Origin: Croceicoccus mobilis
GTDB lineage: Bacteria; Pseudomonadota; Alphaproteobacteria; Sphingomonadales; Sphingomonadaceae
Length of the DNA: 64,000 nt
Direction of reading: 5' to 3'
NCBI RefSeq assembly: GCF_001661965.1
Contig: NZ_LYWZ01000022.1
Span: forward strand, 186,001 to 250,000
Positions 1,300 through 34,214 of this stretch are shown piece by piece. The notes beneath the pieces were generated by a model. That model saw nothing but the letters and a program-made list of their open reading frames with translations, was not told the origin of the DNA and ran no database searches. Every line of letters begins with the position of its first letter. Position 1 is the first letter of the stretch. Made by a program: the position numbers and the translations under genes.

Positions 1300-1322
1300 C
1301 CGCTCATAAAGAAGGGAAAACC

Positions 1323-3295: not shown

Positions 3296-3416
3296 TATGC
3301 CGACTTATCCCCCACAAGGCCGTTTCTCTGCCGAAGTGGGATAATGTCCGGCGAATCCTACAATATTCAACCGACATGCAATACTTCTGCATAGAATGTC
3401 ATCAAAGGAGCCGCCT

Positions 3417-18004: not shown

Positions 18005-18020
18005 GAAGATATCCAGTGGA

Positions 18021-18755
18021 TCAGACGGTTTGGTGTTCGGCAGAATTGACAGCGCGCAGTTTCTGCGGATCGCGTACCAAACCGGTTATCGCCAGCCGCT
18101 GCTCGATTGAATCGATCAGTATATCAACATCGGTAATTATGACGCTGTTGGGGGCGTAATCGACCAAGGATTCGAACCGGGCAATCGCTTCGTTTGCAGA
18201 CTCGTCGCGACGGATCGAACCGACAAACTGGTTGACGAACAATTGCTTCATGAAGCGGTGACAATGGCGTGATAGTTTGCGCCTATCGTCCAGCTTGTTC
18301 AGCACGATAGCAATGTCTTCGCGTTCCGTGACCGGCAGCTGCTCGCCCAGCCGGGTCAGGCTGGCAAGTCCGATCGGATTGGGTTCGATTACGCAAATGC
18401 TCAAGTCCGCGAAGCGGCGGATCTGCTCCCATCCGTCCCAGTCTGCGGACGCAATATCGACCAGCGCGAGTTCGTCGGGAGGTGTAGCTTTAATACGTTC
18501 GATCGCAGCATCGCGTTCACCTTTAGTGACATAATTGCCGTTGAGGCGCACTCCGCGCACGACCATTGCTTGGCCATTTGCGCCGACCAGGTTCTGATGC
18601 GGCAAAAGCCCGAAAAGCAGCTTAAGCGAGTCCTGTCGCGTCAAGTCATACGCAGAAACTGCTCGCCCCCGTATGGCAGCCCGGCGAGCGATTGCCGCCG
18701 TTACCAACGTATTTCCCGCGCCGCCTTTGGGTGAGTGAAACGCTAGAACGGTCAA
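18021..18755 (-). CDS. bcsQ: Cellulose biosynthesis protein BcsQ (ParA/MinD-like)
   Basis: A 244-residue P-loop protein of the ParA/MinD superfamily. The Walker A region is SPKGGAGNT, with asparagine where the second lysine of the usual KGGxGKT would be; E. coli BcsQ is similarly unconventional (RGGVGTT), so this need not mean loss of function. LALVDIASADWDGW is the Walker B-like region. BcsQ helps localise and assemble the synthase complex at the inner membrane. It lies 16 bases before bcsAB, and its ATG overlaps the stop of the small upstream gene by four bases. Confidence 0.85.
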   Translation of the reverse strand: MTVLAFHSPKGGAGNTLVTAAIARRAAIRGRAVSAYDLTRQDSLKLLFGLLPHQNLVGANGQAMVVRGVRLNGNYVTKGERDAAIERIKATPPDELALVDIASADWDGWEQIRRFADLSICVIEPNPIGLASLTRLGEQLPVTEREDIAIVLNKLDDRRKLSRHCHRFMKQLFVNQFVGSIRRDESANEAIARFESLVDYAPNSVIITDVDILIDSIEQRLAITGLVRDPQKLRAVNSAEHQTV

Positions 18756-19372: not shown

Positions 19373-19795
19373 TCAACCTAGGTTCGGAAAGCATGCCTCG
19401 GCCTCGACCGTGGCAGGGAATTGCGGGACCAGCGATTGCATGACCGAATTGAACTTTGCATCGATCAAGACACGGTTGGAACTGCCGAAGGTCTTGCAGG
19501 TCGTGTCAGTCTGCGGTGAAACATTGGCCGCGACGACGGTGATGCCATAAGACGCGGCGCGGTCGATGGCAAAGGCCTGCTGCGCATCGGCATCGGAACA
19601 TTGATCGGATATGCTCATGCAGCGCACGGTGGCAAAGGCAACCTCGTCCAGCGAGTGCTGAGTCCAGAACAGGCGGCCGGTTTCGATGAGGCCAAACAGC
19701 ATCATCACTAACAACGGACCGAGCAAGGCAAATTCGATGGCGGCCGCACCGCGCTGATCGGATGCCAAACTACGAATTCGGTTCATCGCCGTCAC
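19373..19795 (-). CDS. tadE: TadE-like pseudopilin (Tad pilus)
   Basis: A 140-residue protein with the classic TadE N-terminus: DQRGAAAIEFALLGPLLVMMLFGLIETGRLFW, that is, a G/AAAIEFA processing site with E at +5 followed by one membrane helix. Such proteins are minor pseudopilins cleaved by the prepilin peptidase of the Flp/Tad system. Three cysteines in the periplasmic part could form disulfides. The start overlaps the stop of the second TadE-like gene by four bases, so the three tad genes here form a minus-strand unit ending just before the cellulose operon. Confidence 0.85.
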   Translation of the reverse strand: MTAMNRIRSLASDQRGAAAIEFALLGPLLVMMLFGLIETGRLFWTQHSLDEVAFATVRCMSISDQCSDADAQQAFAIDRAASYGITVVAANVSPQTDTTCKTFGSSNRVLIDAKFNSVMQSLVPQFPATVEAEACFPNLG

Positions 19796-20283
19796 TCCAG
19801 CCTCACCGTCGTGCTGCGGCTGATGCGGCCATTCCCCACCATCGAGCTTGGCACGATGACTGAAGTAAAATCCGACGACGCATCGAGCGTCAGGTAATAG
19901 CCGGCGCTGGTGCCGTTAGCTGTGCAGACTGTGCCGCAGGCTTGACCGGTAAAGCTTCCGTCACCGTTCAGGCACGAGCATGTGCGCGAAAGATTGGTGC
20001 AGCTTCCCGCGCTGCCGTTGCAACTCACCGCCACAGTCATGGCATCGTCATCGGCAAGCGCCCGAGCATATTGCGGCAGACTGGTGAAGGCAACATTTTG
20101 GCGCGCGTCGAACGCGCTGATCGCGGTGGCCGAAAGGGATTCGTCCATGTGGCTGCGCTGGATGAAATAGAGACCAAAATCCAGCCCTGCCGCGATCACG
20201 AAGAACAGCGTAACGGTCCATAAGGCGAACTCAACCGCAACTGCACCGTCTTCATCCTGGCGGAATCTCCGCAAGCGTTTCAT
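19792..20283 (-). CDS. Second TadE/TadF-like pseudopilin
   Basis: A 163-residue protein with the same architecture: short basic N-terminus, DEDGAVAVEFALWTVTLFFVIAAGLDFG (processing site plus one membrane helix), then a periplasmic domain with seven cysteines, several clustered (NGSAGSCTNLSRTCSC). It is best called a TadE/TadF family member. It starts two bases after the TadG-like gene and overlaps TadE. The clustered cysteines are unusual for such a small pseudopilin and suggest a disulfide-stabilised tip or adaptor subunit. Confidence 0.8.
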   Translation of the reverse strand: MKRLRRFRQDEDGAVAVEFALWTVTLFFVIAAGLDFGLYFIQRSHMDESLSATAISAFDARQNVAFTSLPQYARALADDDAMTVAVSCNGSAGSCTNLSRTCSCLNGDGSFTGQACGTVCTANGTSAGYYLTLDASSDFTSVIVPSSMVGNGRISRSTTVRLE

Positions 20284-20285
20284 CT

Positions 20286-22334
20286 CTACCTCACCAGCTT
20301 GATGTCAGCATCGCCACTGCCGGAATCGTCTTCATCGGCAGAAACGCAGGCCGATCCCGCCACCGCGCCGCCAGCGGCCTTGATCTTGCCGGCGATAAGC
20401 ATGAAGCACCCGCCGCCACCCGATGTCGAATTGCCGCCGGTCATGGAAACTTCGGTCTTGGGCATGTGAACGACGCCGCCGAAGATATTGCCCGATCCGC
20501 CGGTCCAGCTCGCCTTGCTCGTCGTATCCGAATGGAACAGCAGCATGCCAATCTCACCGCCTGTCATCGAATTTTCGGCCGCAAGCAGCTTGCTTTTAGC
20601 ACCGCCCGCCAGTTTCAGCGTTCCCGATGCAACAAAACTGACGTCATAGCCGACCATGTCATAGCCCGATCCCCAGCTGCCATATTCCGTGCCGTCGAGG
20701 CTGGAATATTGGGGCCAGGTCGTTCCGCCGGTGCCGTTTACGAAATCGCCATCGATCGTATAGCGCCCCGACCCAAAGTAGGCCGAACCCGCAATCGTAA
20801 GATCGCCGGTGATGTAATGGTTGTTGGTCTCGCCGAATGCGATGGCGCTGCCCCCTTGGGTATCGATGTCGCCATGAGCCGAGAACATGCCATCGCCCAT
20901 GAACATGCGCGCGCTGCCGCCTAGCTTGATTGCATAGCCCTGCTTGGTCGCGCCGATATTGTAATCGCCTTCGCCTGCTTTCAACTCGCTGTTGCCGGCG
21001 ATGTCGATGCCTTCCAGCACGGTCAGGTCGCCATCGCCCAGCAGCGTATTGCCGCCGCCTGAAAGCTTCAGCGACTTGAAGCTATGATCACCGTCGCCCG
21101 CTTCGAAATAATGTCCGCCGCCAAGGGCGACATCCCCGTTGATGATGACATTGCCGTCGCCCTTCTTGTTCGTGCCCTTGAACGACACCGTGCCCGAGCC
21201 GATCCACAATTCACCATCGCCAAAGGTCACACCGTTCGAACCGGAATCGAAGCCACCGTTTATATAGACATCGCTGTCCCCGAAATTGACCGTTGAGCCA
21301 CCGCCCACAGCGACGCCCTTGGATACGGTGATAACCGAGCCGGCTTCGAAGGTGACATTGATGCCGCCTGCTACAGTGAATTTCCTGATGTTATAGGTGC
21401 CTGCGGGTAGCACATAGTTGCCGCTTGTCCCCAGCCTATAGTAGGCAGCGGCGCCTTTCGGGCTCCATGAAAAATCATAGTCGGACCCGCTTGGTGTGAC
21501 AGGATCGGACAAGGTGGGCAGCGGGTCGGCATCGCTGATCTGTGCTACCGCCGAAAGCAATTCTGCATTCGTTTCCCACGGATCTACTAGTGTCGTGGGC
21601 GTGTTATGCCTGTCCTCAGCATCTGGAATTGCGTTGTTCCACTGCGGCACCTTGAGGCTTCCCGCATAGCGCAGCGAGTTTGCGACCAGCGACCCGGAAT
21701 TTAGCGTGATGTCCCCGCTTCCCGAGATGATGTCGCTAGCCTCGATCGACGTCCCCTTCTGGTCGAGATCGCCAATAGCGGCGACCGAGCAATTGGGTGC
21801 GATGATCGATGCACCGCCATTTACAACCAGCGATCCGCCACCGGAATCGAGCGCCAGAAAGCATGGCGATGCATATTGATCTTCGGCCGAAACGATGGCT
21901 GCACTGTCGGCGGTAACCGTGAAATTGCCCGTAAAGCCCAGCACCGATGCCAGCATGAAAGGCACGTCGCGCGAGACAGCAACCGAGATCGAGGTCTCGC
22001 CCTCTCCAGGGAAATCCGCGAGGAGCGACGCATCGACCACTGCGCCTTCGAGTCCGTTGGCCAAGGCGATTACATTGGCGACAGCGTCAATATCGACCGT
22101 ATCATCACGCTGATATTCCATGGCGGCCGCCAGCGCAGCCATATCGGCCACGCGCTGGTTCATGACCCTTTGCCCGTATCCCCGGTTGAGGTCGAAGGCT
22201 AGGCCAACCCCGCCAATTACAACCGGCAGGCTCAACGCGACCAGCGTCGTGACTGACGCACGACTGTCTTCGCGCAATCGCGCTGCCAGACTGCGTATAC
22301 GAGAAAAGAGCGACCCTTCCATGCGACGGTGCAT
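20286..22334 (-). CDS. tadG: TadG-like protein with large glycine-rich repeat domain
   Basis: A 682-residue protein. The N-terminus has the TadG (Tad/TadE-G) pattern SRASVTTLVALSLPVVIGGVGLAFDLNRGYGQRVMNQRVADMAALAAA: one membrane helix and the Tad helical region. From about residue 170 to the end runs a long glycine- and aspartate-rich stretch with recurring units such as GDGDLTVLEGIDIAGNSELKAGEGD and VAVGGGSTVNFGDSDVYING, which looks like a right-handed parallel beta-helix. Typical TadG proteins instead carry a von Willebrand A domain. There is an alternative ATG 12 bases downstream of the one used. The product is likely a pilus-associated surface or adhesive protein; the repeat domain's function is unknown. 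Confidence 0.75.
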   Translation of the reverse strand: MHRRMEGSLFSRIRSLAARLREDSRASVTTLVALSLPVVIGGVGLAFDLNRGYGQRVMNQRVADMAALAAAMEYQRDDTVDIDAVANVIALANGLEGAVVDASLLADFPGEGETSISVAVSRDVPFMLASVLGFTGNFTVTADSAAIVSAEDQYASPCFLALDSGGGSLVVNGGASIIAPNCSVAAIGDLDQKGTSIEASDIISGSGDITLNSGSLVANSLRYAGSLKVPQWNNAIPDAEDRHNTPTTLVDPWETNAELLSAVAQISDADPLPTLSDPVTPSGSDYDFSWSPKGAAAYYRLGTSGNYVLPAGTYNIRKFTVAGGINVTFEAGSVITVSKGVAVGGGSTVNFGDSDVYINGGFDSGSNGVTFGDGELWIGSGTVSFKGTNKKGDGNVIINGDVALGGGHYFEAGDGDHSFKSLKLSGGGNTLLGDGDLTVLEGIDIAGNSELKAGEGDYNIGATKQGYAIKLGGSARMFMGDGMFSAHGDIDTQGGSAIAFGETNNHYITGDLTIAGSAYFGSGRYTIDGDFVNGTGGTTWPQYSSLDGTEYGSWGSGYDMVGYDVSFVASGTLKLAGGAKSKLLAAENSMTGGEIGMLLFHSDTTSKASWTGGSGNIFGGVVHMPKTEVSMTGGNSTSGGGGCFMLIAGKIKAAGGAVAGSACVSADEDDSGSGDADIKLVR

Positions 22335-22510
22335 ATGGCCGCACTAGTTAAGCAAATCTTGCATCTAGATATGCATAACAGAAATTCACGGGATCATTCG
22401 CGATTTGTCATCTTGGTAACAACCGACGAATGATATTCGTTCTCAGATGGCCGATGCCATCCCTTGAAAATTTCCACTGAGAGCTGATTCGTGACTTCCA
22501 TTGAAAATTG

Positions 22511-24159
22511 GCTCTGACTCACTTTTGCTGCTGGCGATTGGTTACGCACCGACTACGCGAGCGCGCAGCAGGTCCAGTTTCGCTCGCCCATACATCTGTC
22601 GTTTTATCAGCTTGAGGCGAGTGATCTGCCCCTCGGTCTGCCCGTTCGACCATGGCGAGATAATCGCGTTGCGAACTGCAATCAGGTCTTTTTCCACACC
22701 GTTGACGAACGACGCAACGAGGCTGCCTCTGGTCAGTTCGATCCATTCATCAAGTTTGGCGGCTGATTTTGATCTGATCATTGATTGGAATTCTCCAATC
22801 GCCTTGCGTGCTGCCACCAACTCAGGAACATTGTTCTCGATCACGGCGACGAGGATGGCTTCGGATGTTCCCAGTCCATCCTGCGCTGAGGTCATTAAGC
22901 GAGCCAGAACCCGTGCCGACGGCGTGCGCATGAGGCCGCTTTGTCCGGCTTGTTCGGCGAGGCGGCGGCGTTGGGCCCACTGAGCGACGATACCTCGCTG
23001 TCCGACGAAGCCTTCCGCGCGCATCTCACGCCAGAGCGCCAATGCGTTGCGGGACCCAGCTTCCCATCGCTCGTTCAGCCATGGCAACCAACTATCCAGA
23101 ATACTTGGCCGGGTACGAAAGAAGTCTAGCCGCTGTCCGCGGAGCACGTCCCGAACGAGTTTGCGGCTGTGACCAGTCTGTCGGACGATCTGTCGGATGG
23201 AAGTGCCACTTTTGGCCAGTTTCTGAATCGCCTCATTGGTTTCCTGACGGCGAAGGTACCCCTCGTACTGCAGCTTCTCGGCATAGGTGAGAAGCTTGGG
23301 GTCGACCACATTGTTGCCGACCGCTTGCCTGATCTGCCGCATGGTTTTGCTGACGGCGTCCAGAAATGCTCGGCTCGAGTTCTCCATGAGGTGCCAGCGA
23401 TCGGCAACCTGCTGAGCATGAGGCAGTCCGCGTGCGATCGCCTCACCATATCCGCCGCCGCGATCTCGAGCGACGATTGATATGGACGGGTGCTTGGTTA
23501 GCCAGGCGCGTGACGTCTCCAGCGCCCGATCTGGTAAGAGTGTGACAGGCTTACGGCGCTCCAGATCGCAGACAATCGTTCCGTATGTCTGGCCTCGTCG
23601 GAAAGCAAAATCATCAATGCCGATGACATGGAGTTCGTCATGCCGATCAATGGCGTGGCGCCGTACAACCCGCAGCAAAGTGTCCTTGCTTACTGGCACC
23701 ATCAGACGGTTGGCAAACGCGGCACCGGGTCTGCCGCCGAGTGCGAGACCCAGATGGTGGACGATTGTTTCAAGTCGCTGAGTACGCCGGCTATATCGAG
23801 CCAAGACACCTACATCGAACCGCTCGCAGAAAATGCGCCGACCGCACACCACTGTATCACACCAAAAGCGGCGCGCCTGGATCGTTAAAACGACGCGGCG
23901 CCCCGCGAGGGGGAGATCTGACGGTTTACGCAGATACCGGCTCTGAACCCGCTGACTTGGGCGGCCGCAATCCGGGCAAACGCCTGAACCACAGCGAGAA
24001 CGCAGTTGAATTTGGAAATCATCTCCGACGCTCTGCAGCGACACAATCTCAAAGCCTTCAGGAACAAGACGCGCTCGTTGAAATCGTCCGTGCATGGCTG
24101 ATCCTCCCAAAGAAGCCTCGGAAGGATACCATTACCAGCAGCAAAAGTGAGTCAGAGCC
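22511..24159 (-). mobile_element. ISL3-family insertion sequence with intact ends
   Basis: The ends are a perfect 25-bp inverted repeat: ggctctgactcactttt... at 22510-22534 and its complement at 24135-24159. The sequence gaaaattg occurs on both sides (22503-22510 and 24160-24167), an 8-bp target duplication as usual for ISL3; the last G of the left copy is also the first base of the repeat, so the exact left border is 22510 or 22511. The element contains one complete transposase gene. Identical ends and duplication point to a recent insertion. Confidence 0.92.
22542..24095 (-). CDS. ISL3-family transposase
   Basis: About 517 residues. The N-terminal zinc-binding domain has CPDCGR and a later pair of cysteines (FWCDTVVCGRRIFCERF); the DDE core follows with VIGIDDFAFRRGQTYGTIVCDLERR, RDRGGGYGEA and VADRWHLMENSS, all hallmarks of ISL3 transposases, and the terminal SPWSNGQTEGQITRLKLIKRQMYGR carries the catalytic glutamate. 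The ATG at 24095 (MHGRFQRARLVPEGFE) is preferred to one 15 bases upstream. No interruption is seen. Confidence 0.93.
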   Translation of the reverse strand: MHGRFQRARLVPEGFEIVSLQSVGDDFQIQLRSRCGSGVCPDCGRPSQRVQSRYLRKPSDLPLAGRRVVLTIQARRFWCDTVVCGRRIFCERFDVGVLARYSRRTQRLETIVHHLGLALGGRPGAAFANRLMVPVSKDTLLRVVRRHAIDRHDELHVIGIDDFAFRRGQTYGTIVCDLERRKPVTLLPDRALETSRAWLTKHPSISIVARDRGGGYGEAIARGLPHAQQVADRWHLMENSSRAFLDAVSKTMRQIRQAVGNNVVDPKLLTYAEKLQYEGYLRRQETNEAIQKLAKSGTSIRQIVRQTGHSRKLVRDVLRGQRLDFFRTRPSILDSWLPWLNERWEAGSRNALALWREMRAEGFVGQRGIVAQWAQRRRLAEQAGQSGLMRTPSARVLARLMTSAQDGLGTSEAILVAVIENNVPELVAARKAIGEFQSMIRSKSAAKLDEWIELTRGSLVASFVNGVEKDLIAVRNAIISPWSNGQTEGQITRLKLIKRQMYGRAKLDLLRARVVGA

Positions 24160-24410
24160 GAAAATTGACCCGGGTTGATATCATTTTCCGCTGTGAACTC
24201 GCCGCGATGAAGCAGGTGAACCATGGCCTCGTTCATCTCGCTGGACAGGAGATCGAAGCCGGCCAGGTCCTTGTAGGCCGGGATTTGGCCGCTTTGATCT
24301 GGTAGGCGTTGGAACGGACCTCGCGTTCCGGCGACTTTGGACTTGGGCAACTGGGAGAGAAACGGGACGGCCGCATCAAACGCGGGCGCCCCTTGTTCGG
24401 GATTTCACCG
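24160..24410 (-). pseudogene. Remnant of an IS21-like IstB helper gene
   Basis: The minus-strand frame reads IPAYKDLAGFDLLSSEMNEA followed by MVHLLHRGEF, which resembles the segment just before the Walker A motif in one group of IstB ATPases. No start codon context and no ATP-binding part are present: the frame runs into the ISL3 element at 24160. Left of ISL3, at about 22460-22510, and here, short words such as attttccactg and attttccgctg recur, as in the ends of some IS21 elements. I read this as an IS21-like remnant into which ISL3 inserted; the family call is tentative. Confidence 0.4.
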
Positions 24411-24499
24411 ACGGTCTGGGCCATGCCATAAGTCTGAGGTGGTGCCGGTTTTCTGGACAGGGTGTTAAGCTACTCCCGACCTGAAGGAATGGTACGGGA

Positions 24500-24784
24500 A
24501 TGAAAACGACTAGGAAGCGGTACAGTGCGGATTTCAAGGCACGGGTTGCGCTGGAAGCGATCCGTGGTGACCTGACGCTGGCAGAGTTGGCCGCGAAACA
24601 CGGTGTCCACCACACGATGATTGCCTCATGGAAGCGGCAGGCCGTCGAGGGGATGGCATCCACGTTTTCCGGGTCTGGTGATGCGGCCAGAGCCGTGAGC
24701 GACGCGGAGCTAGAAAAGCTTCACGCCAAGATCGGTCAACTGGTCGTGGAACGCGATTTTTTAGCGAAAGCCTCCGGTCGATGA
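24500..24784 (+). CDS. IS3-family OrfA
   Basis: A 94-residue DNA-binding protein with the transposase_8 helix-turn-helix: RYSADFKARVALEAIRGDLT, then LAAKHGVHHTMIASWKRQAV, and a C-terminal leucine-zipper-like segment (LEKLHAKIGQLVVERDFLAKA). In IS3 elements it pairs with OrfB. Here orfB starts with an ATG overlapping the orfA stop (ATGA), just after a T-rich stretch (gatttttta), so OrfAB could be made by frameshifting or OrfB by coupled re-initiation. Both frames are intact. Confidence 0.9.
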   Translation: MKTTRKRYSADFKARVALEAIRGDLTLAELAAKHGVHHTMIASWKRQAVEGMASTFSGSGDAARAVSDAELEKLHAKIGQLVVERDFLAKASGR

Positions 24785-25671
24785 GCGTGGCGCGGAGGCG
24801 TTCGATGATCGAACCTGCTCACCACCGCCTGTCGATCTCGGCGCAGTGTCGCCTGCTCCAGATAAGCCGTTCGTCCTATTACTACGCACCGGTGCCGGAA
24901 ACGGACGAGACGCTGGCACTTATGACGGTGATCGACGAGGCATTCATGGAATGCCCGTGGTATGGCAGCCGCCAGATGGCGCGACACTTGCGGCGTGCGG
25001 GTCACGAGGTCGGTCGACGGCGTGTGCGGCGGTTGATGGCGAAGATGGGGCTGACGCCGATCTATCAACGACCGCGGACCAGTGATCCACATCCGCAGCA
25101 CCGGGTCTATCCATACTTGCTGCGCAAGCTGACGATCGAGCGACCCAACCACGTCTGGTGCGCCGACGTGACATACATCCCCATGCGCCGTGGCTTCCTC
25201 TACCTGGTGGCGGTCATGGACTGGGCGACCCGCAAGGTCCTGGCCTGGCGGTTGTCGAACACCATGGATGCGGGGTTCTGCGTCGCGGCTCTGGAGGAGG
25301 CGCTGGCCCGGTTCGGCAGGCCGGACATCTTCAACACGGATCAGGGCAGCCAGTTCACCAGCTTCGCCTTTACCAGCGTGCTGCGCGACGCCGAGGTGCG
25401 GATCAGCATGGATGGTCGGGGGCGTTGGATGGACAACGTCTTCATCGAACGCCTCTGGCGCTCCCTGAAGTACGAGTGCGTCTATCTCCATGCCTTCGAG
25501 ACCGGGTCAGAGCTGAAGTCTGGTCTTGGCCGGTGGATCACCTATTACAACACCCAGCGTCCGCACTCGGGCCTTGCCGGGAGAACCCCGGTCGAAGCCT
25601 ATCGGCGGATCGGACAAACAGATCATGGGGGGCATGCCCCCCATGATCTGATGATCAAACAGGCGGCGTGA
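24781..25671 (+). CDS. IS3-family OrfB transposase
   Basis: A 296-residue DDE integrase-type transposase (rve domain). HTH_21-like start (LSISAQCRLLQISRSSYYY), then the catalytic residues in WCADVTYIPM (first D), NTDQGSQFTS (second D) and DNVFIERLWRSLKYE (E), and the C-terminal YNTQRPHSGLAGRTPVEAY motif. The protein appears complete. About 55 bases separate its stop from the right inverted repeat. Near its end the DNA repeats gatcatggggg/cccccatgatc as an inverted pair, within the coding sequence. Confidence 0.92.
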   Translation: MSVARRRSMIEPAHHRLSISAQCRLLQISRSSYYYAPVPETDETLALMTVIDEAFMECPWYGSRQMARHLRRAGHEVGRRRVRRLMAKMGLTPIYQRPRTSDPHPQHRVYPYLLRKLTIERPNHVWCADVTYIPMRRGFLYLVAVMDWATRKVLAWRLSNTMDAGFCVAALEEALARFGRPDIFNTDQGSQFTSFAFTSVLRDAEVRISMDGRGRWMDNVFIERLWRSLKYECVYLHAFETGSELKSGLGRWITYYNTQRPHSGLAGRTPVEAYRRIGQTDHGGHAPHDLMIKQAA

Positions 25672-25727
25672 ACGACAACCGCGATTAGCTTAACTCAGCC
25701 GCTAAACTGTCCAAGAAGGCGGGACCA

Positions 25728-26271
25728 GTTCGAGCAGCGGCGGCGAAAGCATGGCATTGCGATCGCGCCCGCCCTTGCCGTTCTCGACGCGGATTAACAT
25801 CCGCTGGCTGTCGATATCGTCGACCTTGGGGTGTGCGACCTCCGAGACCCGCAGGCCTGCGCCATAGGCGACGCCCAGCGCGGCCTTATATTTAATCCCC
25901 GGCGCTGCCTCGAGCAGTCGAGCGGCTTCTTCGACGCTCAGCACCTCACGCACCGTGTGCGGGCGGCGTGTGGCGACAAGGCCGCGGGCAAGATCGCGTC
26001 GCCGCAAGGTGACCGTGTAAAAGAAGCGCAAGGCCGAAACGGTGCTGTTGATGGTTCCGGCGTTCGCGCCGCACTCGTGCTGGTGGATCTGGAAATTGCG
26101 CAGGTCTTCCGACGTGGCGGTATCGGGAGGGCGCCCGAGATAGGCTGCAAAGCGCTGTACGTTGCGGACATACTGACGCTGGGTGCGGGGCGAGAGCCCG
26201 CGCATCATCATGTCGTGCTGCATCCGCTGACGCAGCGGGCTGACGGAAGTGGATGGAGTGGTGGTAGTCAT
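25728..26271 (-). pseudogene. Tyrosine recombinase (phage-type integrase), truncated by IS3
   Basis: The N-terminal core-binding domain is present (LRQRMQHDMMMRGLSPRTQRQYVRNVQRFAAYLGRPP) and the catalytic domain begins with the first arginine region AYGAGLRVSEVAHPKVDDID. The coding sequence stops making sense at 25727, where the IS3 end starts, so the H-x-x-R and the tyrosine are lost and the protein cannot recombine DNA. The family resembles integrases that travel with IS91-like elements. The missing half is not found elsewhere in the window. Confidence 0.85.
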
Positions 26272-26456
26272 TGCAAGTTCCTCTCTTTGAAGGGACTTGC
26301 ATCGTCAGGCGGCGGCCGCTCCCCGGCCAAAGCCAATTAATACCACGCTACCTCGCAAATAGGCACCCGTCCCGCGAAGCGGGTTCGTGCTTGTCGGCGA
26401 CCGCGGTCAACTCGCCCAATATCTGATGGTCATTCAGGTCGCGTTGGCAGCGACTA

Positions 26457-26763
26457 AACGGACGCGGCGGCCCTCCTTGACGACCTGCCAAAGGCGAAAT
26501 GGATGCTGGCCGATCGGGGTTATGACGCCGAAAAGTTCAGAGACGCGCTTGAGCGAAAGGGCATCAAGCCGTGAATGCCGGGTCGGAAATCCCGCTCCAT
26601 GCCGGTCAAATACGACAAGCGCCGATACAAGCATCGCAACCGCATCGAGATCATGTTCGGTCGCCTCAAGGATTGGCGCCGCGTCGCAACCCGCTACGAC
26701 GGCTGCCCAACCGTCTTCTTCTCGGCCCTCGCTCTCGGCGGCACTTTGCTCTTCTGGCTGTAA
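26457..26763 (+). pseudogene. IS5-like transposase, C-terminal remnant with internal stop
   Basis: The plus-strand frame reads TDAAALLDDLPKAKWMLADRGYDAEKFRDALERKGIKP, then a TGA stop at about 26575, then continues in the same frame as MPGRKSRSMPVKYDKRRYKHRNRIEIMFGRLKDWRRVATRYD up to FFSALALGGTLLFWL. This is the last third of an IS5 (IS427/IS1031-like) DDE transposase, including the D of ADRGYD and the E of NRIEIMFGRLKDW. The stop replaces a codon just before the PGRKSR segment. The N-terminal two thirds are absent. Confidence 0.85.
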
Positions 26764-26779
26764 TCAGTGAGTCCTGAGG

Positions 26780-28651
26780 TTACGATTCCCTGACTGAGTC
26801 CCCCTCAGTGCATGTTGGTATAAGATCCGACAGTCTGTATCGGTAGGAAGGATGATGTCGCGTGCCATCGAACACAGAATGCATTTCGAATGCAATTTCG
26901 CCATTCTTGCGAGCATCCGCGAGATATTCAGAGGTTATTTTTTTCCTATCGAAACCTGCTCGATCCAACAAATGGCGCACTTGTCCGATCGCAACAAATA
27001 GGGGTTCCAACAAACATGATCGGGTGAGCCAATTCACGATCTCGAAATTTGCCTGAACGGGATCGATCAAAAGATCGAGGAACGTCAAATCCTGCTTCGT
27101 CGCATACAGGGGAATTGCCCCACGTTTGATGTCCAGAAGCATCTGCTGCTTCTTGTAGCGAAGCACCAGGAGATGGCGTAGCGCATCTCTGAGGCGCATC
27201 ATGCCTGTAGCGCCATCGATAATTTGCACCCGGCCAAATATGGCAGCCTTGACCGCCAAGACGTCTGAGAGCCTGTAGCTTTCGCTTCTCTTGCCGAAAA
27301 AGCTGTCAAGTGATGTGTCCGGCATTAATAAGTCGGGATGATTCCACCCCAGCAGTCGTCGATCATATGGAGTGCCTTCAAGAATCCGCGCCGCTGAGAC
27401 GGAGCTGACGCTATTAGCGCAGGCTTCGAGACAGGCATTAATTTCAGCCCACAGCCTGTCAGCCAGAAGCTGAGGGTTGTCAAAGGAGCAGTGCTCCGTC
27501 AGCTCCCGGAGCTTCAGTTCATATGCTTTGCGAACGCGATCGCGAGAGGCTCTTCCTTCTATGGTTTTCAAGAAGGCGCTTATCGAAGCATTCGGCGGTA
27601 GCGTTCTAGCGACCGGTATAGAGGTTGCTAGATTTCGTCTCCGGCGGCGGACATTAAGGCGGTCTGCGCAATAGGAGTCGATCGCTTCCTGCAGGGCCGG
27701 AAGCGGCACACCGCTGAGTCCCTTGCGAGGGAAAAGAATCATCTGGCCTATCGCCGTCGCAAAGGCTTCCCGCTCGGGAAGATGATGGCGGACAGCCTCG
27801 TTGCGGTAGGTAATTGTGTCGACCAGATCATAATAGGAATTTGGCCAATCGGACATGGTCGCGGCCGCGACTTCGACGCGGCAGAGGCATTGTTCAAAGC
27901 TCAAGGACTGGTCGATCAGACCGTGCCGGTAGCGAATGCTTTCGGTGTGAACAGGATCGTCTTCTTCTGCAGGCGTTGTGGCTGCGACCCCGATGATGTC
28001 GATGGTCGTCATAAGATCATTGGCAGGCAGCGCGCGAAACCGCTCGTTCAGTCGGCTCTGTGCTCGAGTTTGATTAATCCCCGCCAAAGGTTCAAACAAT
28101 GCGGACATCGCGTCGATAAGGCCAGGCGATGCCGCCGGCGCGACAATCTCGCCGAAATGCCGGCCGCATCTGCATTCCCAAGGATGAGCCGCGGAAATGA
28201 GCTGGAATGGGCGGGGTTCGCCGTCTGCGCCAACGCAGGCGTCGCAGTGGTCGACCAGCAGCTTTCCATGACGCGGGCAAGCTACGGCATAGAAGAGGAA
28301 CCAGGCGTCGTGAATGACGCCGGTTTCCCTGACGCACTCCGGGCAGATCCGAAGCTGTCCCGTCCGGAGAAACTTCTTCTGGATCATTTGGCCACAGAAA
28401 GTGACCAGCCCCTGCAGCATGTCCGAAGCTGCGGGCCGCCAGCGCATCGAATGAAGGACCTCGATCGTTTGCCCGGACACCTCGGACAGGCGTTCCCAAA
28501 GCCTGTCGTCGCTGCTGGTCGGCGTCAGCCCGGTGATGCCGGCTGCGGCGCGACCCTGCCTTAGATTGGTAAGGAAATTCGCATCGCACAGCCGGCGCAC
28601 GTAGCCATGCAGGTTTTCACCAGGGATGGGTGAGACGATGAAAGGGAGCAT
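26780..28651 (-). CDS. tniQ: TniQ-family target-selection protein
   Basis: A 623-residue protein. The N-terminal TniQ domain starts MLPFIVSPIPGENLHGYVRRLC and has the zinc-binding pattern ICPECVRETG...AVACPRHGKLLVDHCDAC...WECRCGRHFG. The long C-terminal half is unlike short TniQ proteins and resembles TnsD in size, suggesting DNA sequence recognition. In Tn7-like elements TnsD/TniQ binds a chromosomal site and recruits TnsC to direct insertion. It lies 26 bases after tnsC. Its 3' end abuts the IS5 remnant, so whatever cargo once followed is disrupted here. Confidence 0.88.
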   Translation of the reverse strand: MLPFIVSPIPGENLHGYVRRLCDANFLTNLRQGRAAAGITGLTPTSSDDRLWERLSEVSGQTIEVLHSMRWRPAASDMLQGLVTFCGQMIQKKFLRTGQLRICPECVRETGVIHDAWFLFYAVACPRHGKLLVDHCDACVGADGEPRPFQLISAAHPWECRCGRHFGEIVAPAASPGLIDAMSALFEPLAGINQTRAQSRLNERFRALPANDLMTTIDIIGVAATTPAEEDDPVHTESIRYRHGLIDQSLSFEQCLCRVEVAAATMSDWPNSYYDLVDTITYRNEAVRHHLPEREAFATAIGQMILFPRKGLSGVPLPALQEAIDSYCADRLNVRRRRRNLATSIPVARTLPPNASISAFLKTIEGRASRDRVRKAYELKLRELTEHCSFDNPQLLADRLWAEINACLEACANSVSSVSAARILEGTPYDRRLLGWNHPDLLMPDTSLDSFFGKRSESYRLSDVLAVKAAIFGRVQIIDGATGMMRLRDALRHLLVLRYKKQQMLLDIKRGAIPLYATKQDLTFLDLLIDPVQANFEIVNWLTRSCLLEPLFVAIGQVRHLLDRAGFDRKKITSEYLADARKNGEIAFEMHSVFDGTRHHPSYRYRLSDLIPTCTEGDSVRES

Positions 28652-28677
28652 GGATTGGTGCTTGAGGCTGCTACCGC

Positions 28678-29649
28678 CTATGCTGCGTTCTTCGTTTCTC
28701 GGCCACCGTCAAGAAGCTTGGTGAAAGGATTCGACTTGCCGGTAATTGTGCCCCTTCGCATGATTTGCTCGGTGGCGGCGTACAGGTCGATCACCTCGAT
28801 CTTTTCATGTTCGCCATGGAGGGCGAGTTCAGCAGCCTTTCGAAGCAGGAAGTTCAGCGGTCGCAGCAGTCCGCCCGTCACTGAGTGGATCGCATCGGCG
28901 ATTTTTGGGGAGCCTATCCTAGATTTCTCGTTGAATGGAAGCGCACTGTCGAAATTAAATAGGAAATTTCGAAACTCGGTCTTTTCGTCCCGCTGCTTGT
29001 AGTAAAAGGAACCTAGCGTGACGCGATAGGGTGTGATGCTCTTGAGTTGATCGTTCGTCTCGACGATGGCTGTCACTTCCTTCATCCCGGCCATGACAAA
29101 GGGGACGCGAGTGTCCTTAGTAATTTCCTTGATCCATTCGGCCGCTTGGTAGGTCTGAACGCTACCTGCCGTTCGTACGATATGCTGGAACTCATCGCAG
29201 ATGACGAGTTCGACCTTCTGGGCTATGAGATGCTTCTTGGCCAGATCGGTAAGTCCTTTGAGGCCGCCCTTTGCGAATTCCTTCCCGACCAGCTGGCTCA
29301 CCATCTCCTGAGCTGTTGTGAGCGGCGTCGCACGGGCGGGAAGGGTGATATATAGAACAGGTGTGATCTGGTTTTGGTTTTCGTCGCGGAATGACTGGCC
29401 ATACACATCCCGATATCGCTTCAGAAATGTGGTCTTGCCGACGCCGGTTTCACCGGTAATAATCATACACGTCGGTTCGGCGAAGAGGCGACGATCCTCT
29501 CTGATCTCGTCTAGAATCGCTTCGATCTCGGTGGTTGAATCCCTGTTTACAAACACAGTGGGGATCACTGCAAGCCGCACGGCAGCGGAGTGCTTTGTCC
29601 AATCTATTTCTTTGTTCGTATTAAGTGTCACCGTCAGCCTCGCCATCAT
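28678..29649 (-). CDS. tnsC: TnsC/TniB-type AAA+ ATPase
   Basis: About 323 residues with Walker A CMIITGETGVGKTTFL and Walker B VELVICDEFQHI. TnsC/TniB ATPases link the target selector (TniQ/TnsD) to the transposase and assemble on target DNA. The start is uncertain: adjacent ATGs at 29649 and 29646 lie inside the end of tnsB; a longer frame from 29697 and a GTG at 29631 are also possible. All of them overlap or abut tnsB, so translational coupling is expected whichever is used. Confidence 0.88.
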   Translation of the reverse strand: MMARLTVTLNTNKEIDWTKHSAAVRLAVIPTVFVNRDSTTEIEAILDEIREDRRLFAEPTCMIITGETGVGKTTFLKRYRDVYGQSFRDENQNQITPVLYITLPARATPLTTAQEMVSQLVGKEFAKGGLKGLTDLAKKHLIAQKVELVICDEFQHIVRTAGSVQTYQAAEWIKEITKDTRVPFVMAGMKEVTAIVETNDQLKSITPYRVTLGSFYYKQRDEKTEFRNFLFNFDSALPFNEKSRIGSPKIADAIHSVTGGLLRPLNFLLRKAAELALHGEHEKIEVIDLYAATEQIMRRGTITGKSNPFTKLLDGGRETKNAA

Positions 29650-31840
29650 TGTATGGATCGAAATCGCACTCGTCACTAAATTCGATTCTTCTTCCAAATA
29701 CCTTATTGATATCGCTAATGATTTCTGACTCGGTTTGGCAATCGAGATAGGGATCTATGCCTTCATCCTCTTCGGGTTCGACATTCTGGAAGGGAAAGAC
29801 GGCACTTGAATCGCCAGCGTCATTGGCGGCCTGCTGGGGCGCGTCCCAATCCTTCGCATCGACGGCGGTGTCGCTGCCAGAGTATGAGGAGCGACCCTTG
29901 CCGACGAACCTGGCCGCCTTCTTGGTGCCGGCGATGGAACCGGTCTTTTTGCCCTTTTTAGGCTGGCTAAGGCGGCTGCGCATGATCTCATACAGCTCGA
30001 CCTTGGCCTTTAGCAATTGATCAGCGAGCTCAGCTTGCCTTCCATTCTTATTAACAAAAACCTGAATGGTGAGATGCTGCCATATCGAAAGCCCCGGTAC
30101 ATAGGCCGCCCATTTGGGTACAGCAGGAATTCGCATGATGGTCCCGTCATGTTTGACGATGCGAACCTCCGAGAGATCCTTTGGATCGTAGAGGAATTCT
30201 ACGCGGTTATCGTCACCGCGGATTTTGGCGCACTCGGGGCTTAGTCGATAGATATCGAGCTCTTTAGAGTTGTACTTGATATTGTGCAGGCTGATGCCGC
30301 TGCGCCTCAAGGCGGAGCGCTCACGCCGGCCAATTTGATCGAGCTCTCGGCGATCAGTCAAAATGGTGACCGGATAGACCTCGATTAAGCGGTTCCACTT
30401 CGATCTCGGTGTTTCTTTGTTGAGGCCCTTGTGCGGCGTCATCTGGTAAACGTCGATCAGCCACTTGTGGACTGCGTGCAACAGATCCTTGAGGGTTACG
30501 ACCGCGCGATTGGCAGAATCGTAGTCGCCCCGCTGCAGAATGTTGCTGAACGTCGTGCCTGGTGCACTGTGGGCAATTTGGCGATTTGCGGTGCCAATGA
30601 AGCGCTCAACCCCACCTTTATACCAAGCCTTGCGGCCAGGCATGAAATGAATCTCGCTGATGTGCAGCTTGAATGCAAGATCGCGTACATCTTGGGACAT
30701 GTTTTCGCGAGCAAGATCGACGACTAGGCACTTTGGGATGCCTCCGACAGGCCAGTCGTTTTTGATGTTCCAAGGAGATTGGGGGTCGCCTCGCATCAGC
30801 TCAACGTAGTCCTTGTAGAGCAGCCCGTTCTTCAACAACTCCATGACGGTTAAAAGGCTCGGTGGCTCAAACGAAACATGCACAGCATAGGGCATTCGCG
30901 TGCAGCGATCGATGCCGACTGCGATTGTCGGCCGCCCGAGCGGGAGGCCGTTCTCCTCGTCGACCACGATGAGGTCGAATACGGTGTGATCTATTTCCAC
31001 CCGATCCAGAGGTGCTTCCGGATCGGGCAGTTCCATAGTCAATCCCTCTTTGGCGAAAGCGATCGTGGGGCCGAGTTGCGCTTCAAGGATGTCGAAGCGC
31101 GAGATGCGCATGATCGCATTTCGGAGCGCCTTCTCGCCCGGCTGATCCAATTGCTCGTCAGGTTTCCTAGATTTGTTCGTTTCGTTGACCCTATGCTGAA
31201 TGTGCCGGAGCAGCTGCAACTTGGGCAATGGTGCCGGGCACAGGAATTTCTCCGTAATCTCATTCTCGATGATTTTCTGCACTTCCGGATGGAGGCGAGG
31301 GTTCCTGTTGCCCTTGAGATGCTGACGGGAACTGAGACGGGGAGCCGTAGCATGCTTGTTGCCGCGCAGCAGCCAACGACGTAGGGTCGAACATGAGGGC
31401 GCTACGACATCGCCGCGCTCTTGGCGAATTTGCTCGAGCAGGTCAGCGGCTGCTTTCGAAGTTGGGGAGAGGTGCAGCCCGGCGTCTCTCACGCGCTGGA
31501 GATAGTGAAGGCGGTCGGCACCTTTGAGCCGGTTCGCGCTATCGACGCGCTTCTTTCTTCCGAACATTGGATTGGCATGGCTGCCGTCGCTGCGTGCAGC
31601 ATCGCCAGTGATTTCGAGATCGGTTTCGGGATCATAGTCGAGGCCTGGAAGCTGCAAAGTGCAACTACCGGCGCTCAGCATCTGATAGAGTTCCATGTCG
31701 GTCACGGTGAACAGTTCACGGCTCCGCTCGCCAACCCAGTCCAACTTGCTGTGGCGGCGCTCCCGGAACTCAAAGCTCTCGCCATTGGAAATGAGGCGAT
31801 AGCCAACCCCGACATCGAGGCGGAAATTCGTATGCTTCAC
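29621..31840 (-). CDS. tnsB: TnsB/TniA-type DDE transposase
   Basis: A 739-residue transposase with a rve catalytic core: D284 in VEIDHT, D375 in LVVDLAREN and E412 in YKGGVERFIGTANRQ (36 residues apart, as expected for DD35E). The N-terminal 200 residues contain DNA-binding segments, and a Mu-type C-terminal beta-barrel region follows the core. The last 130 residues are charged and acidic (for example VEPEEDEGID) and may contact TnsC, as the TnsB tail does in Tn7. The start overlaps the tnsA stop by four bases (ATGA). Confidence 0.9.
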   Translation of the reverse strand: MKHTNFRLDVGVGYRLISNGESFEFRERRHSKLDWVGERSRELFTVTDMELYQMLSAGSCTLQLPGLDYDPETDLEITGDAARSDGSHANPMFGRKKRVDSANRLKGADRLHYLQRVRDAGLHLSPTSKAAADLLEQIRQERGDVVAPSCSTLRRWLLRGNKHATAPRLSSRQHLKGNRNPRLHPEVQKIIENEITEKFLCPAPLPKLQLLRHIQHRVNETNKSRKPDEQLDQPGEKALRNAIMRISRFDILEAQLGPTIAFAKEGLTMELPDPEAPLDRVEIDHTVFDLIVVDEENGLPLGRPTIAVGIDRCTRMPYAVHVSFEPPSLLTVMELLKNGLLYKDYVELMRGDPQSPWNIKNDWPVGGIPKCLVVDLARENMSQDVRDLAFKLHISEIHFMPGRKAWYKGGVERFIGTANRQIAHSAPGTTFSNILQRGDYDSANRAVVTLKDLLHAVHKWLIDVYQMTPHKGLNKETPRSKWNRLIEVYPVTILTDRRELDQIGRRERSALRRSGISLHNIKYNSKELDIYRLSPECAKIRGDDNRVEFLYDPKDLSEVRIVKHDGTIMRIPAVPKWAAYVPGLSIWQHLTIQVFVNKNGRQAELADQLLKAKVELYEIMRSRLSQPKKGKKTGSIAGTKKAARFVGKGRSSYSGSDTAVDAKDWDAPQQAANDAGDSSAVFPFQNVEPEEDEGIDPYLDCQTESEIISDINKVFGRRIEFSDECDFDPYNDGEADGDT

Positions 31841-32553
31841 ATGTCCTCCAAGGTGGTTAGGCGAGTGAACGGAACGATCCTGGGGGGCAGGTTCCCGCGA
31901 TCGGGGTATCGAATGACCGAATGGCGGGAGACGTCGGTCGATAGGTCGATGAAGACCCGTTCGTTGTATGCCATGGAAAGCACCTGATGAAATTGCAGGT
32001 CATGGCTCGCCATTTTTCCCAGAAGGGAATCTATCGTCAGGGGGCCAGCCTCGAGCGCCGTTGCGACATGAAGCGCTGCGATGTCCTCGAAGATGGGCTT
32101 TGCATAGCGGAGAAGGGTCTCGGCGCGCTTTATGAGATCGGCGGTGATCGACCCCTCGGTAACGACCGAATAGGGGATTCCTTGCTCTTCAGCCCACTCG
32201 GTCCAACCGAGGCGGACTTCGTGCTTTTCTTTCTTTCGCAACTCCTCGATCGTCTTGACCTCGTGGACCTCGCCTCTGCCTTCAACGACAATCGCGAAAT
32301 CGGGATAGTGCACTCGGTTCGCATTCAGCAGCCAGCCTCGCCACTCAAACGGCTGGGAATAGACTTCGGTTACATTCGGATCGAGGTCGCAGAGTAGTAG
32401 GAAATTGCGCTCATGTGAGGATTCGCAGTCAACCATCCGTCCGGCTTTGAGGCTGAGGAAACTCTTCTTTGACCGATTTGAACTGCGTGTAATGGTGTTG
32501 CGCAGCGGTGTTCGGGACGGATTGCAGCCTGCAGGCCATGCTTGATGGGTCAT
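31837..32553 (-). CDS. tnsA: TnsA-like endonuclease
   Basis: A 238-residue protein with the TnsA N-terminal endonuclease fold: CESSHERNFLLLCDLDPNV (glutamates at 44 and 48), VHYPDFAIVV (D85) and GEVHEVK (E98 and K100), matching the E-D-(Q/E)xK pattern of the restriction-type nuclease. TnsA cuts the 5' strands so that Tn7 moves by cut-and-paste. Its presence separates this module from Tn5053/Tn402 elements, which lack tnsA. It is the first gene; about 180 bases upstream lies the presumed right end. Confidence 0.85.
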   Translation of the reverse strand: MTHQAWPAGCNPSRTPLRNTITRSSNRSKKSFLSLKAGRMVDCESSHERNFLLLCDLDPNVTEVYSQPFEWRGWLLNANRVHYPDFAIVVEGRGEVHEVKTIEELRKKEKHEVRLGWTEWAEEQGIPYSVVTEGSITADLIKRAETLLRYAKPIFEDIAALHVATALEAGPLTIDSLLGKMASHDLQFHQVLSMAYNERVFIDLSTDVSRHSVIRYPDRGNLPPRIVPFTRLTTLEDM

Positions 32554-32733
32554 ATTTCGACTGCCTTCCCTTTAATTGACGGGAAGACCAAGGGCCGGGT
32601 AATAGGTTCAGGTTCAGGGTGCCTCATAAATTGGAAAAATGGCACGAAGAACTTAAAGTGCGGTTAGTGTTGGGTTTTCCCCAAATTGCCAGCTTTCAAG
32701 GCGCTTTCATTTCAACTTTTGGGCCGGACGACA
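32554..32733 (-). promoter_or_regulatory. Candidate right end of the Tn7-like element, with tnsA promoter
   Basis: This gene-free stretch lies between tnsA and the 3' end of the yegP-like gene. Read inward on the minus strand from 32733 it begins TGTCGTCCGG, with the TGT start of Tn7-type ends, and then shows related words spaced about 25 bases apart (gaaagcgcc, tgaaagctggc, gtgcc...aatttatgaggcacc) that could be TnsB sites. The outside 5 bases are cggtc. No matching left end with the same 5 bases was found, so the border is a hypothesis based on position and sequence style. Confidence 0.35.
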
Positions 32734-32746
32734 CGGTCCCGAGGGC

Positions 32747-32785
32747 ATAAAGAAAAGGCCGGAAAGCCTGCGCGCTTCCCGACCC
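32747..32785 (-). terminator. Intrinsic terminator after the yegP-like gene
   Basis: On the minus strand a stem of about 10 bp (ggtcgggaagc / gctttccggcc, two mismatches) is followed by TTTTCTTT. It sits about 40 bases past the stop codon at 32827. Confidence 0.65.
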
Positions 32786-32826
32786 TTCCTGAGAGACCCC
32801 CCGGTCCCTTGGGTAATCTACCCGTC

Positions 32827-33009
32827 TTATTCGACGGTCGTGTCGACCATCTCGGCGCCGGGGCCGTTCTTGATGATGGATTCGATGGCGTTCTTCGCGC
32901 TCGCCTTCGAGCTGTAGCCTTCGGTCCAGAACATTGTTTCGGAGTTGTAGCAGAAATAGGCGACGAACTCGCCCTTCTTGTTCTTCCGGATCTCGAACCG
33001 ATGCGCCAT
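32827..33009 (-). CDS. YegP/DUF1508 family small protein
   Basis: A 60-residue single-repeat member of the DUF1508 (YegP) family: FEIRKNKKGEFVAYFCYNSE...GYSSKASAKNAIESIIKNGP is the family's RY/F-E-I...G.Y..ka.a..gI..v..n pattern. The function is unknown. The ATG at 33009 was chosen because it begins the domain; an upstream extension has no family similarity. Its 3' end faces the tnsA-proximal end of the Tn7-like module 94 bases away, so the gene may be the attachment target of that element. Confidence 0.85.
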   Translation of the reverse strand: MAHRFEIRKNKKGEFVAYFCYNSETMFWTEGYSSKASAKNAIESIIKNGPGAEMVDTTVE

Positions 33010-33116: not shown

Positions 33117-34214
33117 CTAACCGAACCGCGCCGGGGAATAGAGCGCCGGATCGATTCCGCGCGCAGGCCCTTGCGCCTCGCGGTCCAAAAGCAGGCTGGC
33201 CGCCATATCGCCGCCCGCAGGTGATGTCTGAATGCCCGATCCGCCCTGCCCGGCGCACCAGAAAAAGCCCTCGACCCGGGTGTCGAAGCCATAGACCGGC
33301 GTGCGATCGGGCGAAAAGCTCCTGAGCCCTGCCCATTTGCGCTCGACGGTCTCGATCCGCCAGTCGACGACTTTCTCCATCCGGTCGATGGCGATGGCGA
33401 CGTCAATCTCCTCGGGCGCGGCGTCGCAGGGGGGCGAGGGCGTCTCGTCATGCGGACTTAGCCACACGCGACCGCTTTCCGGCTTGAAGTAGAAGCTGTC
33501 GTTGATGTCGAGGACCAGCGGCAGGTCGTCAGGCGCGGCGGGCGCGGTGCGCAATTGCGCGACGGTGCGCCGCATGGGAGAGATCGCGATCGGCGCAGCG
33601 CCTGCCATCGCGGCGACTTCGCTGGCCCATGCACCTGCGGCATTGGCGATGATGCCTGCCTTTATCTCGCTGCCATCGGCAAGGCCAAGCCGCCAGCCGC
33701 CAGCCTCACGCGTGGCCGCGACAAGCCGGGCACGGCTGCGCAGCTTTACCCCGCGCTGCTTAGAAAGCGACAGGAAATGGGCGTGCACTGCGGCCACATC
33801 GATATCGGCGCAGGTCCCGCCCCATGTGCCGCAGACCCAATCGGAGCGGATGCCGGGCACCATCTCTACGATCCTGTCCCGCCCGACCATTTCGATATTC
33901 GCGCCCAGTTCGCGGAATTCACGGTAATATCTCTCCACCGCGGCGCGATCTTCCTCTCGCCCGATATTGAGCGCCCCGCGCGCGGTCAGAAAGCCATGTT
34001 CGCGCAGGTAAGGTCCCGAGCCGACCGTCAAGGGCAGGATCTGCGGGCCGCCATAGGTTTCTTCCCAGAATGCGGCCGAGCGCCCGGTGGCGTGATAGCC
34101 GGGGCGATCCTCACCCTCCAGCATGATGACCGATGCGTGGGGGCCAAGAAAAGCGGCCATGCTGGCCCCGGCGATTCCTGCACCTATGATCGCGACATCG
34201 AAACGCTCGGTCAT
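33117..34214 (-). CDS. FAD-dependent oxidoreductase (DAO family)
   Basis: A 365-residue flavoprotein of the D-amino-acid oxidase/glycine oxidase group. The N-terminus has the dinucleotide-binding fold VAIIGAGIAGASMAAFL with the acidic end of strand 2 (MLEGE), and the C-terminus has WCAGQGGSGIQTSPAGG, which contacts the flavin. The substrate is probably an amino acid or related amine, but this cannot be read off. The start overlaps the stop of the upstream hydrolase by four bases, so the two are a transcriptional unit. Confidence 0.88.
   Translation of the reverse strand: MTERFDVAIIGAGIAGASMAAFLGPHASVIMLEGEDRPGYHATGRSAAFWEETYGGPQILPLTVGSGPYLREHGFLTARGALNIGREEDRAAVERYYREFRELGANIEMVGRDRIVEMVPGIRSDWVCGTWGGTCADIDVAAVHAHFLSLSKQRGVKLRSRARLVAATREAGGWRLGLADGSEIKAGIIANAAGAWASEVAAMAGAAPIAISPMRRTVAQLRTAPAAPDDLPLVLDINDSFYFKPESGRVWLSPHDETPSPPCDAAPEEIDVAIAIDRMEKVVDWRIETVERKWAGLRSFSPDRTPVYGFDTRVEGFFWCAGQGGSGIQTSPAGGDMAASLLLDREAQGPARGIDPALYSPARFG

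Follow-up and report, generated by a model that had tools for sequence, protein, structure and literature searches.

The right end of Tn7 faces glmS. TnsD covers the last 36 bp of glmS with insertion taking place about 25 bp downstream (PMC2918618), and fixed insertion distances are described as general (PMC8649781). Protein-guided Tn7-like transposons are insertion tools, with targets and polarity rules known for few genes. Here we describe a Tn7-like element of Croceicoccus mobilis that occupies part of a 64,000 bp stretch of contig C15 (C15:186001-250000, hereafter the window; positions without a prefix are those of the window), for which an initial annotation had proposed attachment to the 3′ end of a yegP-like gene. 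Judged from its sequence, the locus is a complete, cargo-rich transposon (TnsABC plus one long TniQ) inserted in the gap between rnhA and yegP. We regard rnhA as the likelier attachment gene and consider it probable, with considerable reserve, that insertion behind rnhA was directed by TniQ and left the spaced end of the element towards rnhA, reversed relative to its kin.

The whole element measures 43,422 bp (C15:175312-218733); its left end follows directly on rnhA and lies 10,689 bp before the start of the window. The ends and flanks are as follows.

1-32733, no strand: element portion inside the window, delimited by the 23-bp terminal inverted repeat and the CGGTC duplication on both sides
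32711-32733, minus strand: terminal repeat of the right end (tnsA side), TGTCGTCCGGCCCAAAAGTTGAA; a single TnsB-type site lies at offset 12
32734-32738, plus strand: target duplication CGGTC, the second copy (C15:175307-175311) lying 4 bp past the rnhA stop
32739-32826, no strand: flank DNA of 88 bp from the duplication to the yegP stop, with a terminator-like inverted repeat by reading of the sequence
32827-33009, minus strand: yegP-like gene (DUF1508; Pfam 8.9e-13)
33117-34214, minus strand: flavin adenine dinucleotide (FAD)-dependent oxidoreductase, chromosomal flank gene beyond the yegP-like gene
C15:174865-175302: rnhA (RNase HI), the other flank, outside the window and 43.5 kb from yegP

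Positions 32733-32711 read TGTCGTCCGGCCCAAAAGTTGAA and the identical 23 bases stand at C15:175312-175334, forming a perfect inverted terminal repeat; allowing up to 3 mismatches, this 23-mer was found at only two places in the genome and its reversed control at none. A 5-bp duplication and TG..CA terminal repeats, as in Tn7-like elements, are both present (CGGTC, ends TGTCGTCC). The end at 32733 given in the initial annotation proved exact, being marked by the repeat and the duplication, and the spacing of some 94 bases to the yegP stop was measured as 93 bp. An element ending at the insertion sequence (IS) cluster was considered and rejected, the matching end lying behind rnhA.

The genes rnhA and yegP are convergent with the element between both 3′ ends, and the reconstructed empty gap is 97 bp (4 bp on the rnhA side and 88 bp on the yegP side plus the duplication). 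In relatives the distance from the rnhA stop to yegP was 6-62 bp in 13 of 19 yegP loci when the first stop was used (62 bp in G290); three of the other six were without rnhA within 900 bp (L035, L047, L051) and three were unparsed (L037, L049, L050), with yegP facing rnhA at 4 bp in L037 (G299) by reading. All 13 same-genus genomes searched carry rnhA and none has an element there, providing empty sites; the initial annotation was right to place the insertion behind yegP and to look for related genomes with an unoccupied site. In eight of these genomes rnhA faces yegP (G119, G302, G299, G290, G300, G258, G178, G221), in three the FAD oxidoreductase gene (G303, G036, G298) and in two another neighbour (G301, G304); yegP is absent from the rnhA site in three same-genus genomes. 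No TnsB profile match at E ≤ 1e-60 was obtained in the 10 other same-genus genomes of the family sample.

The four transposition genes form a single minus-strand run (32553-26780).

31837-32553, minus strand: tnsA endonuclease (Pfam TnsA_N 8.6e-8; catalytic residues present)
29621-31840, minus strand: tnsB DDE transposase (Pfam Mu-transpos_C 1.3e-5; D284, D375, E412)
28678-29697, minus strand: tnsC AAA+ regulator (Pfam TniB 4.7e-20 and AAA_22, run on 28678-29655; Walker A/B)
26780-28651, minus strand: tniQ, 623 aa, a long single TniQ/TnsD-like target selector (Pfam TniQ 1.7e-13; alignment)

The tnsA and tnsB genes overlap by 4 bases and the start of tnsC falls within tnsB; this start is uncertain, being either TTG at 29697 as listed or the first internal ATG at 29649, with no start codon at 29655. 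The Pfam families and the presence of every residue named in the initial annotation bear out its reading of a Tn7-like tnsABC-tniQ module with intact catalytic residues: TnsA has E44, E48, D85, E98 and K100, TnsC has the Walker motifs GETGVGKT and VELVICDEF, and D284, D375 and E412 of TnsB are invariant in a six-row alignment. Membership of TniQ in the TniQ/TnsD selector family is given by Pfam and by a TniQ profile matching solved TniQ chains at 7.1e-11. The protein contains CPxC and CxxH motifs and further Cys residues, and an alignment of five long TniQs (23-28% identical to that of the window) revealed that the Cys/His residues and scattered C-terminal residues are kept. A sequence search of PDB with TniQ matched the N-terminal part to TniQ chains and gave a TnsD at E 0.1. 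The predicted model is weak, with a mean pLDDT (predicted local distance difference test) of 63, mostly 60-87 in the C-terminal two thirds, and its comparison with PDB folds gave no match at E ≤ 0.001, a chain of a TnsC-TnsD complex ranking 11th at E 1.5. It is plausible that the C-terminus would act as reader of the target gene.

Kin were sought with TnsB in overlapping genome sets, each of which counts the C. mobilis genome itself. At 1e-10 there were hits in 35 of 298 genomes of the family, at 1e-30 in 18 of 396 of the order and at 1e-70 in 6 of 387 of the order; profiles hit 8 of 385 genomes in the class at 1e-40 and 2 of 397 in the family at 1e-60. An alignment scan of genome contigs with TnsB identified 10 loci, while the TniQ scan of genome contigs found no relative. 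Four of the ten were delimited (L092, L093, L094, L096), L091 has one candidate end only, L097-L100 were not delimited, and L095 was dropped as its match coordinates, identities and site hits are identical to those of L094. Among a second set of 20 loci only L071 (G436) and L072 (= L096) were delimited, the other 18 being compared by tblastn; nothing nearer than 7 mismatches to the window end sequence was found at these 20 loci, and kin ends were located individually. Seven of these loci served as tree rows, L073-L076 and L078 being drawn after L077, L080 and L086 had been dropped; the rows are open frames beginning at the first start codon, and some of them carry additional residues at the N-terminus. 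In the midpoint-rooted TnsB tree the window groups with L071, L072, L091, L092, L093 and L094 (100/99), L072 and L091-L094 forming a group of their own (100/99) that L071 joins at 88/83. The TnsC tree instead joins the window to these five (97/95) and leaves L071 outside. The TnsB and TnsC trees thus disagree on the order of L071 and the window, and in the TniQ tree the branching is left open.

Matched ends and duplications were obtained for five kin. In Sphingomonas A2-49 (L092) a 10,463 bp element with GGCTG on both sides sits inside the rnhA stop codon with yegP on the other (tniQ) side, and in S. jeddahensis (L096) an 8,883 bp element with GGTAG on both sides sits at the rnhA stop, has the FAD gene at its far end and gave no yegP match at the locus; in both, the tnsA side abuts rnhA. 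The elements of Sphingomonas CROZ-RG-20F-R02-07 (L093:7900-15508; 7,609 bp, CGCGC duplication) and UBA2369 (L094:7881-15513; 7,633 bp, GCCGC duplication) turn the tniQ side to a SWIB gene (Pfam 2e-30 and 2.5e-30, respectively) and have differing neighbours on the tnsA side. The fifth, in G436 (C1:466340-500562; 34,223 bp, TTGTT duplication), has its tnsA-side end 28 bp from the 3′ end of tRNA-Cys. In a Porphyrobacter metagenome-assembled genome (BIN49, G950) an element-type end stands immediately after the rnhA stop, with the tns genes (L091) on a separate contig and their tniQ side towards the FAD gene; the 39.7 kb inside the rnhA-side end gave no tns match. The candidate FAD-facing end of L091 lies 116 bp past the FAD stop and is flanked by AGCGC, not by the GCTAA of the rnhA side, although the complement of GCTAA, TTAGC, overlaps the FAD stop. 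The two ends are at most candidate partners of one element. Only one of the five delimited kin, L092, has a yegP flank, and this at its tniQ end, and yegP as a site shared by the whole group was rejected since kin sit elsewhere. Use of the rnhA site is uncommon among the elements seen, since of the 48 of 50 TnsB-hit genomes in which rnhA was found only that of S. jeddahensis (G452) has it, by comparison of coordinates, within 60 kb of TnsB on the same contig, although contig breaks could hide others.

Several features of the kin were seen in passing. L093 and L094 have nearly no cargo and carry before tnsA a gene Z that is 57-60% identical between the two and has no Pfam match; the other flank of L094 is an aminoglycoside 3-N-acetyltransferase-family gene. 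Two oppositely transcribed genes with no Pfam match lie between tnsA and the rnhA-facing end (L092:6580-8671, L072:13540-15734), one being alike in both loci (24.5%, 6e-6) and weakly resembling TnsB regions of L098 and L078, the second equal in position with no detectable similarity. The tnsA and tniQ frames of L096 are broken, and the tnsB of G436 is interrupted by a stop. By alignment the residues of the L091 TnsA (L091:9225-10004) that correspond to D85, E98 and K100 of the window are H, D and R, and the cutting activity of this TnsA may have been lost. Read from the translations, without family search, the cargo of G436 resembles genes for metal efflux and for type I restriction.

Insertion distance was taken from the end of a conserved block (NERADxLAS or LAC in RnhA, FEMNKxISxHV in SWIB, both chosen by us) to the element. 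From the last conserved RnhA codon it is 36 bp in the window, 29 bp in L092, 30 bp in L096 and 27 bp in G950, and from the SWIB block it is 33 bp in both L093 and L094, so that the single window copy lies at 36 bp from rnhA compared to 27-33 bp in kin. Past the stop codon, SWIB kin insert at 24-27 bp and rnhA kin at about 0 bp, whereas the window element ends 93 bp past the yegP stop, about three times the kin distance. The insertion distance in the window fits rnhA better than yegP. That kin sit at rnhA, that the distance is nearly right and that L096 occupies rnhA without yegP together make rnhA the likelier target.

Terminal transposase sites, given as offsets from the element end, were scored with a weight matrix built from 26 sites of other elements (the outermost and picked internal ones), which favours these sites, with 34 and 56 of L092 and G950 excluded. 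Compact ends have sites at 12, 34 and 56 (L092 and G950 at rnhA, L093 and L094 at SWIB) or at 12 and 34 (G436 at tRNA-Cys), and spaced ends at 12, 92-94 and 125-127 (L092, L096, L093, and L094 with an extra 71) or at 12 and 90 (G436). The compact array faces the presumed target at five of six kin ends, with the sixth, L096 at rnhA, showing 12 and 131. The rnhA-facing end of the window element is spaced (12, 102, 134 and an inverted 208), three of its sites having been added to the matrix, which favours them; the yegP-facing end has a site at 12, an inverted one at 98 and a weak one at 174, with no compact array. Such scores are reached by chance 0.14 times per 240 bp of element interior. A simpler site count was noisier (0.48 chance matches per 300 bp), finding only 56 and 90 at the rnhA end of L092 and six scattered weak matches at the yegP end of the window. 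The compact end of L093 and of L094 lies at the tniQ side; in these two it is the operon that is turned round, not the insertion. The polarity of the window element is opposite to that of kin if rnhA is the target and Tn7-like if the yegP side is, and polarity therefore argues for the yegP side, opposing the distance argument.

In the favoured scheme TniQ would bind rnhA near the 3′ end of its coding sequence, at about the NERADxLAS codons, and TnsC would then be loaded from the TniQ-bound end, with TnsA and TnsB excising the element and joining it some 36 bp past these codons, just behind the rnhA stop, an insertion that would spare rnhA; we infer all steps following DNA binding from Tn7. Several observations weigh against this scheme. 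The spaced array faces rnhA where the compact array of kin mostly faces the target, and the tnsA side faces yegP. The 36 bp of the window is 6-9 bp beyond the other three rnhA ends (27-30 bp), and in a gap of only 97 bp any insertion is near both genes. Identity to kin is low (30-35% for TnsB, 23-28% for TniQ), such that their target need not apply here. Orientation control seems present in all Tn7 relatives, according to a review (PMC11406308). In favour of the scheme, reverse-orientation insertions at glmS are described as rare Tn7 products (PMC10201428); the polarity of CRISPR-associated transposons (CAST) is described there as shiftable by changes to the right end, or when IHF is lost in one system.

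The most serious rival is that TniQ reads the yegP side, the element having entered in ordinary Tn7 polarity with its tnsA end, which lies 93 bp beyond the yegP stop, turned to the target. We consider this unlikely though still worth weighing. The proposal of yegP as attachment gene in the initial annotation fares well on polarity, with the tnsA side facing yegP, a spaced, left-type array at the rnhA-facing end and polarity usually controlled (PMC11406308). It fares badly on distance and on the yegP-facing end, which is without a compact array, and on the occurrence of related tnsABC-tniQ elements next to rnhA, SWIB and tRNA-Cys, an outcome that the annotation itself had set as counting against a yegP target; L096 at rnhA without a yegP match and the three same-genus genomes without yegP at the site point the same way. 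A second rival, in which insertion at rnhA in normal polarity was followed by inversion of the whole element between its 23-bp ends, would reconcile distance with polarity and is compatible with the intact duplications and the perfect match of the inverted ends. There is no direct trace of such an event and 23 bp is short for homologous recombination, making this explanation improbable. Untargeted or other-target insertion that fell by chance between convergent genes, a harmless place, is the least probable of all, since the rnhA stop codon itself is where two fully delimited kin and one more end are placed, even though G436 of the same wider clade sits elsewhere. Returning to TniQ-directed insertion behind rnhA, we would give about even chances to the broader proposition that a Tn7-like lineage homes to the active-site end of the RNase HI gene, with sister lineages inserting there in opposite polarity.

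The remainder of the element holds cargo and mobile-element sequences.

26-4583, plus strand: end of a ter operon (TRSP, StiP-PELOTA, C-C bond lyase, TelA; Pfam)
8754-18755, minus strand: cellulose synthesis genes (GH8, BcsC, BcsA-BcsB fusion, BcsQ-like; Pfam)
19373-22334, minus strand: TadE, TadE and Tad/TadG-like genes (Pfam)
22510-24159, minus strand: insertion sequence of the ISL3 family, its inverted repeats perfect over 25 bp
24500-25671, plus strand: IS3-family insertion sequence genes (24781-25671 tested, first frame 24500-24784 by reading)
25702-26271, minus strand: truncated tyrosine recombinase (Pfam Phage_integrase 4.1e-11, profile positions 2-79 of 172)

Left of the window (L059:3494-13560) Pfam identified five TerD-domain proteins, TerC/DUF475, an ATP-grasp protein, a trypsin-like protease, DUF4236 and PRTase_2, and in the window cargo also an IS66 transposase, such that one Tn7-like transposon jointly carries a ter stress operon and a cellulose operon. 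Several open reading frames (ORFs) of the element, within the part given to Pfam, have no Pfam family. The IS cluster (22335-26770) adjoins the tniQ stop and includes a transposase-like remnant at about 26440-26760 by reading, the ORF at 26387-26770 having no Pfam match.

With CRISPR-associated Tn7-like transposons the element shares the core TnsABC and TniQ, and the PADLOC CAST models for TniQ, TnsC and TnsB match. No Cas protein was found among the ORFs given to Pfam, which are part of those of the element, and Rfam gave no match in the window, and CRISPR guidance was rejected as nothing pointing to it was found in these sets. In the openly accessible literature on Tn7-like elements, to which the search was largely confined, no paper was found naming rnhA, yegP or SWIB as an attachment gene. 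If used for attachment, the ends of rnhA and of the SWIB gene would be two more conserved natural targets, with empty sites already at hand. L093 and L094/L095 resemble the window element in TnsB clade, long TniQ and 5-bp duplications, but differ in having a SWIB gene at fixed distance and the compact end on the tniQ side. L092, L096 and L091 share its TnsB clade, an rnhA or FAD flank of the same interval and terminal sites of the same kind, but in L092 and L096 it is the tnsA end that abuts the rnhA stop, with two extra genes between tnsA and that end. The likeness to Tn7 extends to TnsA, TnsB and TnsC with a TniQ-family selector, a 5-bp duplication and, more tentatively, site arrays at the ends and insertion behind the 3′ end of a conserved gene. 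It differs from Tn7 in its low identity, in having one long TniQ and no TnsE among the ORFs searched, in being flanked by rnhA and yegP rather than glmS and, if rnhA is the target, in a polarity reversed towards that gene. The window copy is as such a natural test of what fixes left-right polarity, and if sister lineages do lie at rnhA in opposite polarity, this, together with the SWIB pair and its operon flipped relative to the compact end, would make polarity in Tn7-like elements evolvable and separable from target choice.

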